Shown in pieces: positions 9,469 through 17,087 of a DNA stretch of 17,663 nt. A program made the translations under genes and the position numbers. Location: NCBI GenBank assembly GCA_023247085.1, contig JAHFHC010000019.1:1-17663 (forward strand), in the 5' to 3' direction. A model generated the notes under the pieces. The model ran no database searches. It was not told the DNA's origin and worked only from the letters and a program-made list of their open reading frames with translations. Position 1 is the stretch's first letter, and each line of letters starts with the position of its first letter. Source of the stretch: Microcaldota archaeon (lineage in GTDB: Archaea; Micrarchaeota; Micrarchaeia; Norongarragalinales; UBA8480).

Positions 9469-10884
9469 TTATTCTATTTTCCTTATAATTCCGTTGTTCG
9501 CGTCAACTTCTATTAAATCTCTGGTTTTAATCGCTTTTGTGGCAATGTGTGTTCCGACAATGCACGGTACTCCAAACTCGCGCGAAAGCACCGCCGCATG
9601 TGAAGTCATTCCACCTTCATCAGTTACAACTGCACTTGCTTTTCTCATAAGCGGAACCATGTTTGGTTGAGTCATAGTAGTTACTAGAACTGCGCCTTGT
9701 TCAAATTCTTTAATTGCATTTGAAAGCTCTGCAATTCCAACTACTTTTACCACGTAGGCTTTTGCTGTGACTTTTCCAGGGTTAGCAACTCCGCCACGAA
9801 TTTCCCGTACGTCATTGCGTACAAAATACTCTGGAAGATGCTTTTGAACTAAAACCTTAGCCTCTTCTCCTTCAACTATGCTTACTTTTCCAGCTTTAAC
9901 CGTAACTGTGTAAAATTGCTTTCGTTGCCGCAACTTTGTTTCTTCAACACGTGGTTCATTACGCAGAAAAGCAATTAGTTCGGGAATAGAATAAACTGAA
10001 AAAACGTCATTTAAGCCGATTGACATTCTCTTTGAAACTTCTTTGAACAGTGAAAGGAAACGGAACTCCGCGCCTGCCCACTTATCTTTTAGTTCAAGGC
10101 GTTGCAAGCCCAGTGTTCTTAAAAACTGTACAGCGCGCTTAGTATCTGCATTGAGTTTTGCTTCTAATTTTAGCTGAAGCGCTTTACGATGCTTTTGTTC
10201 GGCTTCAAATTCTTTTTTAAGCTCAGAAAATGGTTTAATGCGTGATAGTCTTGAACGCAGGAAATCAATGTTTTGGAGCTCATTGTAACTATTGTAAAAA
10301 AGCACGGCATATTCATAACAATGTGCAAGTAACGCTTCTTGAGATGGGTTTTTGCCTAGTTTAGAAAATGCGAGTTCTTCGCGCTTTATAACGTCCATTT
10401 CGTCCGGCATAAGTAGAATAGATAAGTCTTCTTCAACTGCGGAACCGCCAGTTTTTTTCATTGCTTCTTTTATGATCTTGTGAGGATAGTCAGTGAACTC
10501 CGCTTGCATCATAGCAAATGGAACCGCTGTATTGATAATACAACTTTCAAACTTTTCAAGAAAAACTGCAAGTTGTTCGTTGGATAAAGAATGGAGTTTT
10601 GTTGCGCGTAGTTCAGAAAAAAGCGAATCAAAATCGGTTTTTGCAGAGTCTATTTTCAATAAAAATTCTTTTTGAAATTCAGCTTCAAGAAAACGTTTGG
10701 AAAACTCTGCGCTTACTTCCGCATTTTGTTTTGTTATAAACGTTGTAACGTTTCTGGTTTCAACAACTCCAAACATGTCAGTATCTTTGCCGATGTACTT
10801 GCTAAGTTCACAAAAACACTTCGCCCAACAATTAAACAAAACTAGTGACTCGCCTTCACTCCATTGAAAAATGTAGTTTTCCAT
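9469..10884 (-). CDS. PEP-utilising enzyme swivelling-domain protein (paralogue 1)
   Basis: 471 residues. Only the C-terminal part (about 365-471) belongs to a known family: the mobile phospho-histidine domain of PEP synthase/pyruvate phosphate dikinase, with VVTDEGGMTSHAAVLSREFGVPCIVGT and catalytic His429. In those enzymes this domain swings between an ATP-grasp domain and a PEP-binding barrel. Both are absent here. The N-terminal 350 residues are mostly helical, with a charged Lys/Glu stretch near 225-260, and are not recognised. It may act with a separate kinase or phosphate donor, or bind nucleotides; this is inference. A related protein is encoded at 13345-14406. The tRNA gene upstream on the same strand ends 44 bp before its ATG. 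No Shine-Dalgarno is visible. Confidence 0.8.
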   Translation of the reverse strand: MENYIFQWSEGESLVLFNCWAKCFCELSKYIGKDTDMFGVVETRNVTTFITKQNAEVSAEFSKRFLEAEFQKEFLLKIDSAKTDFDSLFSELRATKLHSLSNEQLAVFLEKFESCIINTAVPFAMMQAEFTDYPHKIIKEAMKKTGGSAVEEDLSILLMPDEMDVIKREELAFSKLGKNPSQEALLAHCYEYAVLFYNSYNELQNIDFLRSRLSRIKPFSELKKEFEAEQKHRKALQLKLEAKLNADTKRAVQFLRTLGLQRLELKDKWAGAEFRFLSLFKEVSKRMSIGLNDVFSVYSIPELIAFLRNEPRVEETKLRQRKQFYTVTVKAGKVSIVEGEEAKVLVQKHLPEYFVRNDVREIRGGVANPGKVTAKAYVVKVVGIAELSNAIKEFEQGAVLVTTMTQPNMVPLMRKASAVVTDEGGMTSHAAVLSREFGVPCIVGTHIATKAIKTRDLIEVDANNGIIRKIE

Positions 10885-10944
10885 TTTGTTAATCGCTTGT
10901 TTTTCGCTTAACTCAAATTAGTATAAACGCAGAGGATGGGATTT

Positions 10945-11065
10945 TTGGGCGACCTTCGACTTGTTTCTTTTCAGCATTTTGCTGATAAGCAAAATGTCTA
11001 AGTCATCGAGCTTTGCTCGATGCTCATTTCGTCGACGTTTTTTCTTTTAAAAAGAAAAAAGGTCG
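10945..11065 (-). other. tRNA-Ser intron 2, non-canonical T-loop site 56/57
   Basis: 121 nt splits the T-loop after C56. A bulge-helix-bulge is visible: central helix GGGT/GCCC, 3-nt bulges TC^C and AA^A, and inner helix GACC/GGTC. Cutting at these bulges gives exactly the consensus loop TTCAAAT. The outer helix is weak, as in the relaxed motifs of other non-canonical introns. The intron body holds three strong hairpins: a T/A-rich one at 11038-11060, an 8-bp stem at 11004-11022, and a 9-bp stem at 10975-10996. It contains no open frame of note. Confidence 0.85.
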
Positions 11066-11094
11066 GAACCCATAAGGACCGAAGCCCACTAGAT

Positions 11095-11159
11095 GCCGCG
11101 CTTATAGGAGCGCAATAGTTTCACAACGTTTTATGTTAGTGTGCAGCTATTTTGCTTAT
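11095..11159 (-). other. tRNA-Ser intron 1, canonical site 37/38
   Basis: About 65 nt inserted after A37, the most common archaeal tRNA intron position. Removal restores the 5-bp anticodon stem and a 7-base loop. Because an A occurs at both junctions, the boundary can slide by one base with the same mature product. A weak bulge-helix-bulge can be drawn with only three good pairs (TCG with CGG), so the splice motif is of the relaxed kind. Confidence 0.8.
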
Positions 11160-11229
11160 TTCGAGTCTAGCGCGTTACCGGATTCCGCCACCTCTGCATT
11201 ACTGGAATTTATTAGGGTTATTCTGGTTT

Positions 11230-11743: not shown

Positions 11744-11883
11744 TTTATTATAACAATAAATTGCGTTAATAAAAATTGGCTAGTTTGATGTTTTTTCTAA
11801 CGGCGCGGTTTTTATTCTACTTTCGTTCAAATATTCTTCTCGTAATTAAGAAGTTTATTGTATAATAGGTGAATTTTTTCAAA

Positions 11884-13338
11884 ATGGATCCACAGCAAAA
11901 TTTTAAGTTAAAACAAGTCAGCGAAGCGGTTTGGGAAATGCCAAAGGAAGGCAACATGAATGTGCCCGTAAGGGTTTTTGCAACTGCTCCGTTAATTGAA
12001 AAAATGAAGCGCGACCGGACACTGCGCCAAGCTCGCAACGTGGCAAGTTTGCCTGGAATTCTTGAAGCTGCTATGGTTATGCCAGACGGTCACGAGGGTT
12101 ATGGCTTTCCCATTGGAGGCGTAGCTGTTTTTGACATAGAAACCGGAGTGGTTTCACCTGGCGGTGTAGGATACGACATAAATTGTGGCGTGCGCTTGCT
12201 TCGCACTGATTTAACCGAAAAAGAAATTCGGCCTAAGCTCAAGGAATTAACGCATAAGCTGTACGATAACATTCCTTCTGGTGTTGGTAGTAAGAGTAAA
12301 TTGCGGTTAAACGACCAGGAGTTTGAACAAGCGGTTACTCGTGGCGCACGTTATTTTGTTGAAGAAAAAGGAATTGGGGTTGAAGAAGACCTTGAACATT
12401 GTGAGGAGAATGGCCAAAAGGATGGTGCAATTTACTCTAAAGTTAGCCAAATGGCAATTAAGCGAGGCAAGCCGCAGTTTGGCACGCTTGGAAGTGGAAA
12501 CCACTTTGCAGAGATTCAAAAAGTTGACAAGATTTACAATGAAGAGGCAGCGAAAGCTTTTGGCATAACTGAAGAAGGGCAAGTTACGGTTATGTTGCAC
12601 ACTGGCTCGCGTGGATTTGGCCATCAAGTGTGCGAAGATAATATTCGTGTGATGCTTGAAGCGGCAAAGAAGTATGGAATCGACCTCCCTGATCCTGAAC
12701 TATGTTGTGCGCCGATTAAGAGTCCAGAAGCACAAGATTATTTTGGTGCAATGAACTGCGCTATTAATTTCGCTTTTGGTAACCGCCATTGTATTGGCCA
12801 GTGGGTCCGCGATAGTTTTGAACAAGTGCTCGGTAGAGAATGGGAAGCTATGGGCATGCGGACGGTTTATGATGTGTGTCATAATATTGCAAAATTTGAA
12901 GAACATGAAGTTAATGGAGTTAACCGCAAAGTTTGTGTACACCGAAAAGGGGCAACGCGCGCGTTTTGGGCTGGAAGAAAAGAAGTTCCAGCTGCTTACC
13001 GCAAAGTTGGCCAACCCGTACTAATTCCAGGCAGCATGTCAACTGCATCCTACGTGCTAGTTGGCAGCGAAACCGGAAGAGTTACGTTTGGTTCATCTTG
13101 CCATGGCGCTGGCCGAGTTATGTCGCGCCACCAAGCAATGCGTGAATTCAACGGCGTGCAACTTGAAAAAGAAATGTTAGACGTTGGCATTCAAGTTCGT
13201 GCACCAACCCCGCGCAGCTTAGCTGAAGAAGCCGGCGGAGCATACAAAGACATCGACGAAGTCATCAAAAGCGTCAAACAATCCGGAATATCAAACGTAG
13301 TATGCCGGTTAGTACCCTTAGGTGTAATTAAAGGTTGA
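11884..13338 (+). CDS. rtcB: RtcB RNA ligase (tRNA-splicing ligase, 3'-phosphate/5'-OH)
   Basis: Joins RNA ends with 2',3'-cyclic phosphate (or 3'-phosphate) and 5'-OH, using GTP and Mn2+; in archaea it seals tRNA exons after intron removal. 484 residues from ATG 11884, close to the roughly 480 of archaeal RtcB. Numbered from that ATG, key residues are Cys101 (YDINCGVRL), His207 (LGSGNHFAE), His239 (MLHTGSRGFGH), His333 (VCHNIAKFE) and the guanylylated His407 (SSCHGAGRVMSRH). A GTG at 11869 in the same frame is less likely, because it overlaps the Shine-Dalgarno AGGTGA (11867-11872) that serves the ATG. The next gene begins six bases after its stop. The intron-containing tRNA-Ser lies about 700 bp upstream. 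Confidence 0.97.
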   Translation: MDPQQNFKLKQVSEAVWEMPKEGNMNVPVRVFATAPLIEKMKRDRTLRQARNVASLPGILEAAMVMPDGHEGYGFPIGGVAVFDIETGVVSPGGVGYDINCGVRLLRTDLTEKEIRPKLKELTHKLYDNIPSGVGSKSKLRLNDQEFEQAVTRGARYFVEEKGIGVEEDLEHCEENGQKDGAIYSKVSQMAIKRGKPQFGTLGSGNHFAEIQKVDKIYNEEAAKAFGITEEGQVTVMLHTGSRGFGHQVCEDNIRVMLEAAKKYGIDLPDPELCCAPIKSPEAQDYFGAMNCAINFAFGNRHCIGQWVRDSFEQVLGREWEAMGMRTVYDVCHNIAKFEEHEVNGVNRKVCVHRKGATRAFWAGRKEVPAAYRKVGQPVLIPGSMSTASYVLVGSETGRVTFGSSCHGAGRVMSRHQAMREFNGVQLEKEMLDVGIQVRAPTPRSLAEEAGGAYKDIDEVIKSVKQSGISNVVCRLVPLGVIKG

Positions 13339-13344
13339 GAAACA

Positions 13345-14406
13345 ATGCTGGTTATTGATGACTTTAAGTACGATGACTGGGAAACTTACTGGTCCGGCGA
13401 CTGGCCTATTTTAGATGTTTCTTACTGGAGCGCATTTTATACTCTGCAACATTTTACAGAAAAAATTAGCCGCTTTGTTCCTAAAACTATTATTGAGTGG
13501 AAAGACAGCAAGAGTACATGCTACCTTAGAATTTCAGACAAAGAAAAGTTTGCTAAAAAAGTTATTGCTTTAATAGAAAAAAATGAGGAATACCTAGGCG
13601 AAGTTTGTAGAGGCCTAAAGAGCGCCGCTAGTAATTTTTTGGAATTTGGGGATAGGGAGCGACAGCGAGAAATAACACCAGAACAGTATTTAGAATATCA
13701 AGACTTAATTTTACGCTATTATCCTTTCCACATTCAAGTTAAAGTCTGCGTTGATTTCCTTCCACCGGAATTGTTAAACCGTTATTTGCCTAAGCTTCAA
13801 GAAGCGAGGGTTTATGCTGAACCGGTTTTTACACAGTCTGTAAAATTTGCGAACGCTTTTGCTAATTCGCTGTCGCGTAAGACCGGATATGCTCCAGAAT
13901 TAATCAAAGCACTCACAAAAGACGAGTTTGAGCTTTATCTTAAAACCGAGAAGCTTCCATCTAAAACAGTGCTTGAAAAAAGAAATGCATACTGCATAAT
14001 GCTGTGCGCCGACGGTAAAATAATTGTTGAAACTGATTCAAAATCAATTCTGCAAATAGAAGACTTTTTAATTCCTAAAGCACGCGGAGATGAAATAAAG
14101 GGGGTAAGCGCTTTTCCGGGAAAAGTTACTGGTAGGGTTAGAATTGTAAACGAACCCGAAGGTGCAGAGTTTAAAGAAGGGGAAATTCTTGTGTCACGCA
14201 TGACGCGGCCAGAATATCTTTCATTGATAAACAAAGCAGCTGCGTTTGTAACAGACGGCGGTGGAGTACTAAGTCACGCAGCTATTGTTGCCCGTGAATT
14301 AAAAAAGCCATGTGTAATTGGCACCAAAATAGCCACTAAAGTACTTAAAGACGGGGATTTGATTGAGGTCGACGCGGAAAAAGGCGTTGTAAAACTGATT
14401 AAGTGA
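13345..14406 (+). CDS. PEP-utilising enzyme swivelling-domain protein (paralogue 2), rtcB operon
   Basis: 353 residues. The C-terminal domain (about 250-353) is the mobile phospho-histidine domain: KGVSAFPGKVTGRVRIV, then VTDGGGVLSHAAIVARELKKP with His311, ending IEVDAEKGVVKLIK. It closely resembles the C-terminus of the protein at 9469-10884 (both share GTxIATK and DLIEVDA). There is no ATP-grasp or PEP-binding domain. The N-terminal 245 residues are helical, aromatic-rich at the start (DDWETYWSGDWP) and not recognised. Its ATG is six bases after the rtcB stop, so it is almost surely co-transcribed with the RNA ligase. A role linked to RNA ligation or its energy supply is possible but only suggested by context. 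Confidence 0.8.
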   Translation: MLVIDDFKYDDWETYWSGDWPILDVSYWSAFYTLQHFTEKISRFVPKTIIEWKDSKSTCYLRISDKEKFAKKVIALIEKNEEYLGEVCRGLKSAASNFLEFGDRERQREITPEQYLEYQDLILRYYPFHIQVKVCVDFLPPELLNRYLPKLQEARVYAEPVFTQSVKFANAFANSLSRKTGYAPELIKALTKDEFELYLKTEKLPSKTVLEKRNAYCIMLCADGKIIVETDSKSILQIEDFLIPKARGDEIKGVSAFPGKVTGRVRIVNEPEGAEFKEGEILVSRMTRPEYLSLINKAAAFVTDGGGVLSHAAIVARELKKPCVIGTKIATKVLKDGDLIEVDAEKGVVKLIK

Positions 14407-14983: not shown

Positions 14984-15328
14984 TTAATCCAGTGCCAGGC
15001 TTGCTTTTAGTGCTTCGTTTACTTTTTTCATAATTTCTGGCGAAAGAGTACCTAGTTTTTTCTGTATTCGATGTTCTTTTGAGATCGTCCGAATTTGATT
15101 GCATTGAATTAAACTATCCTTTGGTAGGTTTCCTTCCCCCGTTTTAACAAGCACAGTAAAGGGGTACTGTCTTTCAGTATGTGACGTAATTGAGGCTACG
15201 ACTGTAGTTGAAGAAACTTTATTTCCAATATCGTTTTGTATAACTACACAAGGTCTAGTTTTGCCTTGTTCAGAGCCGCGTACTGGGTCTAAATCTGTTA
15301 AAACGATATCGCCACGTTCAATAATCAT
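14984..15328 (-). CDS. MazF/PemK-like endoribonuclease toxin
   Basis: 114 residues from the ATG at 15328 (MIIERGDIVLTDLDPVRGSE); another ATG four codons upstream (15340) is in frame. Family signatures are RGDIVLTDLDP, GKTRPCVVIQND and TTVVASITSH, followed by strands and a C-terminal helix (SPEIMKKVNEALKASL). MazF toxins are small SH3-like barrels that cut single-stranded RNA at short sites. The gene overlaps the 3' end of the AbrB-type antitoxin gene by 11 bp, so translation is coupled. Cut-site preference cannot be read from the sequence. Confidence 0.88.
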   Translation of the reverse strand: MIIERGDIVLTDLDPVRGSEQGKTRPCVVIQNDIGNKVSSTTVVASITSHTERQYPFTVLVKTGEGNLPKDSLIQCNQIRTISKEHRIQKKLGTLSPEIMKKVNEALKASLALD

Positions 15329-15584
15329 CAAGCATCGCATCCGCTTCTATGCTGGCGTATTTCCATTCTTCGGCGGTTTCTTCGTCAAATTTGGCCAGTT
15401 TTTTATATCCTTCAGCCATTAATGCTTCTTTTTCTTGCTTGCTCTGCGGCTTTTCAACTACTATTTTATGGTCTTCTATCTTCACGATTACTTTGTTTCC
15501 TGGCTTTAAACCTTCAATTTCGCGAATGGTCTTTGGAATAGTTATCTGTCCACGTTCTCCAACAACTGTTATTTGCTCGTACAT
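15318..15584 (-). CDS. AbrB/MazE-type antitoxin
   Basis: 88 residues. The N-terminal swapped-hairpin DNA-binding domain (about 1-46) is clear: ITVVGERGQITIPKTIREIEGLKPGNKVIVKI. The acidic helical tail (50-88) is the expected toxin-binding part. It should neutralise the MazF-like protein and repress the operon. The ATG (15584) has AAGGTG about 10 nt upstream. Its promoter lies at the 3' end of the thymidylate synthase-like gene. Confidence 0.88.
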   Translation of the reverse strand: MYEQITVVGERGQITIPKTIREIEGLKPGNKVIVKIEDHKIVVEKPQSKQEKEALMAEGYKKLAKFDEETAEEWKYASIEADAMLDDY

Positions 15585-15593
15585 TCTTAGTTA

Positions 15594-15645
15594 GCACCTT
15601 ACGTATTTTTTACATATTTATTCATACCTTATACCTATTTAAATC
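15594..15645 (-). promoter_or_regulatory. Promoter and repeat region of the AbrB/MazF operon
   Basis: On the minus strand a TATA-like TTTAAATAGG (15636-15645) overlaps the stop codon of the upstream gene. It is followed by direct repeats GGTATAAGGTAT and later an AAGGTG (15594-15602) that is also the ribosome-binding site. The repeated AAGGT/GGTAT units are candidate operator half-sites for the AbrB-type antitoxin. Confidence 0.45.
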
Positions 15646-17087
15646 ATTGCATTTTTCATCGGTAGTGGTTTGTCTTGTGTATATTGTATTCCTAGTTTTA
15701 GTGCTGTTTCTGCTTTTTGTAGTTCGCACCCGATGTCCAGCGCGTGGGTTATGACTGAAATTTTATTGCGGTACGCGATGTACCTGTAAGTTTCGATCGC
15801 AGTTTTAGCGTGGAACTCTTCAAGCACTTTTGACCCTTGCGCGACGTGGGTAACGTAAATTTCGCCGTCGCGTGTTGTAATTACTAGGTTTCCGTTCGGG
15901 TCAGGTTGCCATTCACTTTTTGGTTTAGCCGCGACTACTTCTTTTGCCTTGGAAAAGTCATGCTGGTACACGTGGCAGCTTTGCGACACAATGGAAAGAA
16001 AGCCCATTTGAAGTTCCGTATCTTTTGCAACTATTCGTTGTAGTTCGCGTAACGCGAATGCATTTTTTGGCCAAGCTGCGTACATGTCGTTACTTCGAAT
16101 AAACGCTGTCGTGTGCAGTTTACCTTCAGTTACGTTGAACTGTAGCAGGACTAAACATGGTGCGTTTGGGTTATTGTGGTCTTTTTCAATGTTCCATGTG
16201 CATGCCATGTGCCGCCGGCTGTGAGGTGAACTCTTTATTTTTTCTGTGATATGTGCAATTTGGTCAATTGGGGCACGTAGCCGTTGGCCGTACGTGTATT
16301 CAACGCCGTCGATTTTTAACCCAGTTGCAACTTGTGGCACATAAGCTGCAATATCTTCTCGCGTGAATGGAAAAAACCGGTTCCATGACCCACTTCCGTT
16401 TACTGGCAGCGGTTCGTCGTCAGTGATAATTGACGTGAAGCACAAGAGTTCTTTTTGGGGCTCTTCGTACTCGCTTTTTTTCAACGCTCCGAATGTTAGC
16501 ACTTTGTCCAGGATTTGTGGCCACGCTTTTGGGATGTTTGGGGCAATTACTTGCAAGCCGCTTAACTGCGAGGGGAAAATTTCTGGTGCCGGCGGTGAAC
16601 TTAGTTCAAACCGATGGTTTTCGCCGTACGGTATTTTTCTCTCTAGTTTTTCGATTACTGGGTTCAATTCTTCGAGTTTCGTTGTGTTGCGTAAATCGAT
16701 GAGTTCAATGTTTTGACGAAACGATTCGAACTCCGCAATTGGAATGTTCGGGTCAAGGATAAAATTGTCATCGCCGGCGATCATTCGATTTTCGTTTACG
16801 CCCTTTTGAAACAATTTTGCCAGCGTTTCGCCTGAACCACTTAAATCCAACCCAATTACGACTAAGTAGCGTAGTGATTTATTCGCAAGGCAGTTGACGA
16901 TCAACGCGTTTACTCCTTGGTGACGCGAGTACAGTTGCCCGATGACAGTATAGTTGTTTTCTGCGATGCGGTTCGCAACTAGCTCTTTACGCGTCCACAA
17001 CGCTACAATTCCGATTCCCTTGTCGCTTTTTCCGTACAATAGTTGCTCCGTGAACACCACCGCCTTAAACAGCCAGCTGTTTACCAT
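15639..17087 (-). CDS. Thymidylate synthase (ThyA-like) with N-terminal DUF4346-like extension
   Basis: 482 residues. Residues 1 to about 200 form an N-terminal alpha/beta domain of the kind fused to archaeal thymidylate synthases (DUF4346-like; GIGIVALWTRKELV, SLRYLVVIGLDLSGSGETLA). The C-terminal part (about 210-470) has the ThyA pattern: SRRHMACTWN, the nucleophile Cys311 in NAPCLVLLQF, His325, RSNDMYAAWPKNAFAL (331-346) as the dUMP-binding block, and SCHVYQHD (His372, Tyr374). It should make dTMP from dUMP; the one-carbon donor may differ from bacteria. The ATG at 17087 has no Shine-Dalgarno and lies 27 bp from a TATA element shared with the divergent dUTPase-like gene. Confidence 0.82.
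   Translation of the reverse strand: MVNSWLFKAVVFTEQLLYGKSDKGIGIVALWTRKELVANRIAENNYTVIGQLYSRHQGVNALIVNCLANKSLRYLVVIGLDLSGSGETLAKLFQKGVNENRMIAGDDNFILDPNIPIAEFESFRQNIELIDLRNTTKLEELNPVIEKLERKIPYGENHRFELSSPPAPEIFPSQLSGLQVIAPNIPKAWPQILDKVLTFGALKKSEYEEPQKELLCFTSIITDDEPLPVNGSGSWNRFFPFTREDIAAYVPQVATGLKIDGVEYTYGQRLRAPIDQIAHITEKIKSSPHSRRHMACTWNIEKDHNNPNAPCLVLLQFNVTEGKLHTTAFIRSNDMYAAWPKNAFALRELQRIVAKDTELQMGFLSIVSQSCHVYQHDFSKAKEVVAAKPKSEWQPDPNGNLVITTRDGEIYVTHVAQGSKVLEEFHAKTAIETYRYIAYRNKISVITHALDIGCELQKAETALKLGIQYTQDKPLPMKNAMI

Follow-up and report, generated by a model that had tools for sequence, protein, structure and literature searches.

A stretch of 17,663 nucleotides from a Micrarchaeota genome, here called the window, carries on its minus strand the parts of a serine tRNA gene separated by two insertions, one of which lies in the T-loop. 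Is this a working gene whose insertions are removed as introns, and how would intron sequence have come to lie in a T-loop? Judging from the sequence, we consider it highly probable (roughly 0.93) that the locus is a functional gene for tRNA-Ser(CGA) interrupted by two introns of the archaeal bulge-helix-bulge (BHB) type, predicted to be cut by an epsilon2 endonuclease and joined by RtcB.

Anatomy of an interrupted tRNA-Ser(CGA) gene

The gene comprises three exons and two introns lying in order within 270 nt of the minus strand (11197..10928). Exon 1 (11197-11160, 38 nt) holds the 5′ strand of the acceptor, the D-arm, the 5′ strand of the anticodon stem, and the anticodon loop up to position 37, where intron 1 (11159-11095, 65 nt) follows at the canonical position 37/38 with a relaxed BHB motif. 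Exon 2 (11094-11066, 29 nt) resumes with position 38, the 3′ strand of the anticodon stem, a 15-nt variable arm, the 5′ strand of the T-stem, and T54 T55 C56. Intron 2 (11065-10945, 121 nt) then interrupts the T-loop at position 56/57, and exon 3 (10944-10929, 16 nt) supplies T-loop positions 57–60 and the 3′ strands of the T-stem and acceptor. The 3′ end is the discriminator G73 at 10928, CCA is not encoded, and excision of both introns leaves a mature tRNA of 83 + 1 = 84 nt. A split or permuted tRNA is ruled out, since the three exons are collinear within 270 nt.

The spliced sequence pairs fully in the acceptor (GCAGAGG/CCTCTGC), anticodon stem (CTAGA/TCTAG), and T-stem (ATGGG/CCCAT), its T-loop reads TTCAAAT, and the conserved tRNA positions are intact. 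An earlier note on this DNA had described two introns of 65 nt at 37/38 and 121 nt at 56/57 whose joint removal was needed for perfect acceptor, anticodon, and T-stem pairing, and had derived the TTCAAAT junction and an 84-nt product. Its coordinates and lengths proved exact, all stems pair once the gene is spliced, and loop and mature length were both reproduced on the spliced sequence.

The canonical tRNA is recovered only with both introns out. On raw DNA, ARAGORN reports no tRNA at the locus whether or not anticodon introns are permitted, yet it calls tRNA-Ser(cga) with complete pairing once both introns are excised. The Rfam tRNA model reaches 16.4 bits at the locus, which is under threshold. 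The suspicion that tRNA finders could miss this gene is thus borne out by the silence of both tools on its unspliced form. A custom three-exon search that allowed anticodon and T-loop introns (score cut-off 36) gave the locus a score of 48. The same search returned nothing else ≥36 in the window, nothing ≥36 in 1.41 Mb of first-order Markov sequence, and a single match, with a score of 41, in ~0.3 Mb of unrelated genomic strand. Nor did an intact tRNA-Ser(CGA), which the earlier note had held would count against this copy if related genomes had also lost the latter, turn up elsewhere in the 92%-complete assembly.

Predicted splice sites, enzymes, and conservation across Micrarchaeota

The two introns differ in the strength of their splice motifs. 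At 56/57, the central helix GGGU/GCCC has 4 bp, including one U.G pair, with strict spacing, the bulges UC^C and AA^A (^ marking the exon–intron boundary) are 3 nt each, and the inner helix begins GACC/GGUC and extends over at least 4 bp. The 5′ side of this motif (11061..11071, minus strand) carries GGGU, the bulge UC^C, and GACC, and the 3′ side (10944..10954, minus strand) carries GGUC, GCCC, and the bulge AA^A. There is no outer helix, and because the T-stem and the motif are mutually exclusive, this is the relaxed HBh′ form in the terminology of PMC6379350, not the full strict motif; it is in this form that the 4-bp central helix and 3-nt bulges described earlier were found. The central helix takes three bases of the T-stem, which must therefore form after splicing. 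The 37/38 motif is weaker, with a central helix CUCG/CGCG containing one U.C mismatch, yet it has a 6-bp outer helix. Measured against the archaeal BHB intron pattern of 3-nt bulges and a 4-bp central helix, intron 2 conforms and intron 1 is relaxed, with one mismatch. Placement of intron 2 at 59/60 was rejected, since it gives the loop TTCCGAT and breaks the central helix. The fold of the intron region is much more stable than those of shuffled sequences (z = -4.65). CGACC at the 5′ end of intron 2 has two alternative partners, GUCG within a folded element described below and GGUCG at the 3′ splice site, and since these pairings exclude each other, one may speculate about a refolding step.

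These motifs suggest how the precursor would be processed. The 3′ end of each intron would pair with the adjacent 5′ exon, in intron 2 through GCCC with GGGU, borrowing the T-stem; an epsilon2-type endonuclease would cut within the two 3-nt bulges (for intron 2, at UC^C and AA^A); and RtcB would join the exons, after which the T-stem could form. The host genome (Micrarchaeota, 892 kb, 92% complete) encodes both an epsilon2-type EndA, the type able to cut relaxed motifs, and RtcB. Its endonuclease gene (contig C26, minus strand, ~1785) encodes a protein that aligns nearly full length with ARMAN-2 EndA (PDB 4fz2, E = 2.8e-127) and is, by this alignment, of the three-unit epsilon2 type, known for its broad specificity. 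The alignment keeps Tyr236, His251, Lys282, Arg275, Trp384, and the ARMAN-loop Tyr160-Lys161, residues whose roles are given in PMC12397907, with the middle of the protein and its central residues uncertain because the gene was read across a run of N.

The ligase gene rtcB (11869..13338, plus strand) lies in the window itself and encodes an archaeal-type tRNA-splicing ligase (Pfam PF01139, E = 1.4e-171) that is 98% identical to a protein of 'Candidatus Micrarchaeota archaeon isolate nzgw34'. It is near the tRNA gene without sharing a transcription unit with it, and this proximity was judged more likely a coincidence than a sign of a functional link. The tRNA, tspO, and rtcB are flanked by two distinct proteins (9469-10884, minus strand, and 13345-14406, plus strand), each with a PEP-utiliser mobile domain at its C-terminus. 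Farther along the minus strand are a PemK/MazF-like toxin gene adjoining a small gene that resembles an AbrB-type antitoxin (14984-15584) and a single open frame with thymidylate-synthase, MtrA-like, and DUF4346 domains, possibly a fusion protein (15639-17087).

Comparison with relatives bears directly on intron 2. The closest comparable orthologue, in a genome of the same order (G015), shares 77% identity along the full spliced sequence; it retains a short intron at 37/38 and has the uninterrupted T-arm ATGGG-TTCAAAT-CCCAT. This T-arm is identical to the product predicted by removal of intron 2, with the same exon ends joined directly. The T-loop is also intact in a member of the same family (G004), so the T-loop intron is absent from the near relatives that can be compared; two same-genus genomes (71% and 62% complete) gave no Ser(CGA) match. 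Introns at 37/38 occur in most same-order Ser(CGA) orthologues, with lengths of 14-186 nt.

The 56/57 site itself recurs across the phylum. Three genomes of another family (G043, G051, and G054) have a Ser(CGA) gene with a 19-nt intron at exactly 56/57 and the GGGU/GCCC helix. The 15-mer of the 3′ splice site, GCCCAAAAATCCCAY, occurs in 22/301 phylum genomes (0 for a reversed-pattern control), and the matches that could be parsed fall mostly in Ser, Leu, Lys, Ala, or Thr tRNAs; two further matches without an upstream T-stem partner look like chance. T-loop introns at 56/57 are present in about 20 genomes across the phylum, a distribution at odds with the earlier note's view of such a long T-loop intron as unusual. 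Among 17 distinct inner helices at this site, 3.59 of 4 positions pair on average, compared with 2.43 when partners are permuted (at most 3.12 in 5000 permutations). Short of RNA data, this covariation is the best evidence that 56/57 sites are probably spliced.

A folded element shared among introns

Many introns of the host genome hold TTTTCTTT...AAAGAAAA, then AAAAGAAA, and the palindrome occurs 40 times in that genome vs. 2 for a reversed control. In consensus, the element consists of a covarying basal stem, a C.C mismatch, and a U/A-rich stem YUUUUCUUU/AAAGAAAAR, followed by GGAAAAGAAA. The copy in intron 2 (11027..11065, minus strand) has the basal stem CGAC/GUCG, the C.C mismatch, and the U/A stem UUUUUUCUUU/AAAGAAAAAA, then ACGAAA. 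Sequences flanking the U/A stem pair with each other: 46 distinct flank pairs have a mean of 3.17 contiguous pairs, compared with 1.76 when permuted (maximum 2.28 in 5000 permutations). When 16 sequences are aligned, pairing reaches 92% over the 13-pair stem and double changes number 26, vs. 9.9 in shuffles; some copies pair one base out of register. This smaller, better-behaved set replaced a MAFFT alignment of 30 copies, which was dropped because low complexity had put it out of register.

A covariance model of the element (R1), trained without the window sequence, matches intron 2 with 40.8 bits and E = 3.9e-8, although the short calibration makes its E-values rough. R1 finds 47 copies in the host genome and, in the two other genomes of the genus, 25 and 24. 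Of 60 Micrarchaeota genomes searched (host genome counted), 35 have copies, compared with none of 11 genomes outside Micrarchaeota. In the host genome, the matches fall in tRNA introns of numerous isotypes and in a 16S rRNA gene, which is interrupted by an element-bearing insertion (contig C28, 1200-2000, minus strand), and a further genome (G012) has an element-bearing insertion apparently at the corresponding 16S site. In a sample of six loci, the element falls under no Rfam family. We found no description of T-loop introns or of the element in Micrarchaeota in the literature searched, which mostly lay outside subscription journals and the original ARMAN paper, and within that literature the phylum-wide element appears to be undescribed. 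The novelty here is the shared folded element and its phylum-wide reach; the tRNA itself is of a known kind, with archaeal BHB introns.

That the intron 2 element is common to many tRNA introns and some rRNA introns suggests that T-arm introns multiplied in this lineage as copies of intron sequence, the mode of spread proposed for Thermoproteales. Going further, and at somewhat less than even odds, the element may represent a family of mobile or selfish Micrarchaeota elements not described before, one that expands through tRNA and rRNA genes and can persist there because the introns are excised by the epsilon2 endonuclease. The dependence could also run the other way, with the T-loop insertion being a MITE-like mobile DNA repeat that is tolerated only because its flanks permit excision by the endonuclease, the intron being a by-product. 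Consistent with such a repeat, some element copies lie beside tRNA ends or in apparently intergenic DNA, and copies inside introns occur in both orientations, for example, in Ala(TGC) and Val(CAC). However, introns at 56/57 and 59/60 also occur without the element, down to 19 nt, and the element stem covaries as RNA. Together these observations indicate that the introns are independent of the element, and we regard the mobile-repeat origin as unlikely, though deserving of some weight, compared with a tRNA gene whose BHB introns are spliced in their own right.

An interrupted tRNA set and its meaning

T-arm introns are present in at least 17 tRNA genes of the host genome, mostly at 59/60, and its T-loop introns measure 34-145 nt. 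A script recovered 13 genes with a T-loop intron (Ser CGA, GGA, and TGA; Ala GGC, CGC, and TGC; Val CAC; Thr TGT and CGT; Arg CCT; Gly TCC; Trp CCA; Leu TAA). Eight of these introns fit 59/60 with a perfect central helix and three fit it with one mismatch; the idea that all lie at 59/60 was rejected because Thr(CGT) fits better at 58/59 and the window Ser(CGA) intron is at 56/57. Allowing one extra intron added four genes, Pro GGG, Leu CAG, and Gly GCC with 53/54 and T-loop introns and Gln CTG with D-loop and T-loop introns, and ~8 more loci look alike by eye. The sequence of the 53/54 genes makes the piece between their two introns seem to be only ~6 nt (TTCRAA). Five loci of Leu, Gly(GCC), and Pro(GGG) genes seem to have this arrangement (one at contig C36, 29700-30700). 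Two introns are likewise seen at loci of Gln(CTG) (contig C35, 82100-83000), Lys(TTT), where by eye they are in the D-loop and anticodon loop, and Met(CAT), where an intron near 29/30 accompanies the anticodon intron. Matches to a D-arm pattern at six loci had no surrounding tRNA. The earlier note had placed the T-loop intron in a DPANN-like genome, which holds for this Micrarchaeota host, and had thought it unusual there, which the 17 or more genes with T-arm introns contradict.

Conventional searches recover a small part of this set. At E ≤ 0.01, Rfam yields 13 tRNAs for the host genome. The other two genomes of the genus, 71% and 62% complete, have 11 and 15, whereas four family members of other genera have 26, 34, 30, and 19; 13 against 26-34 in three of those four is expected if many tRNAs are interrupted. 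Against the 13 found by Infernal with the Rfam tRNA model, ~40 tRNAs can be located in the host genome, a lower bound because the inventory covers targeted stretches. Two genomes of the same order (G009 and G027) yield 5 and 6 Rfam tRNAs despite completeness of 90% and 71% and have many copies of the element (56 and 19 by the model), and their tRNA sets are probably even more interrupted. Within the genus, the T-loop intron is kept in Gly(TCC) of G002 and Leu(TAA) of G001, while that of Thr(CGT) is present in the host genome and absent from G002, which implies that introns turn over within the genus.

The breadth of interruption also weighs on whether the window gene could be a decayed tRNA pseudogene whose insertions are never removed. 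Its long insertions and the repeat-like element inside intron 2 would fit such decay. Yet all stems are perfect, conserved positions are intact, no other Ser(CGA) copy was found in the assembly, each insertion occupies a known splice position marked by a BHB motif, and the same splice site covaries across the phylum. Moreover, many other tRNA genes are interrupted alike, and the cell cannot have lost them all. We therefore consider decay very improbable and a functional, spliced tRNA-Ser(CGA) gene the better account. Self-splicing group I or group II introns can be dismissed almost entirely: group I introns are reported from archaea (PMC6125680), but the window has no group I or group II match in Rfam at gathering thresholds, and the two introns are short (65 and 121 nt) and have junctions of the BHB type.

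The nearest published parallel in extent is Thermoproteales, for which non-canonical and multiple introns and 'intron transposition' are described (Sugahara 2008; Fujishima 2010, as cited in PMC4033280 and PMC8450103), with 71 introns in 46 tRNA genes of Pyrobaculum calidifontis (PMC8450103) and 16S rRNA introns as well (PMC4496867). In both systems, a tRNA may hold two or three BHB introns, their positions vary, and similar intron sequences recur in different tRNA genes (here R1, with 47 matches). They differ in phylum and in endonuclease, which is epsilon2 here and (alpha-beta)2 there, and, in a comparison made on the Micrarchaeota side only, in the conserved structured element with its U/A-rich stem that is often found in introns here. 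The statement that non-canonical tRNA introns are mostly known from Thermoproteales mirrors the published record and not genome content. Closer in descent are ARMAN-1 and ARMAN-2, for which PMC4033280 lists multiple introns; they belong to the same phylum and share an epsilon2 EndA and relaxed BHB introns at various positions (Fujishima 2011 and Hirata 2012, as cited in PMC4033280 and PMC12397907). A T-arm intron and an anticodon intron in one gene also occur in a red alga, which is unlike the present host in being a eukaryote and for which a single gene is described.

Counts of tRNAs underlie genome-quality checks and inferences about codon decoding, and with 13 tRNAs found against ~40 that can be located, Micrarchaeota tRNA sets may be misjudged as incomplete. 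This Micrarchaeota lineage offers, besides Thermoproteales, a second system for testing whether an endonuclease of broad specificity permits an explosion of introns, and the shared element makes intron spread testable through close relatives. If the element is mobile or selfish, it would have interrupted these tRNA sets to the point where standard annotation overlooks the majority of their genes.
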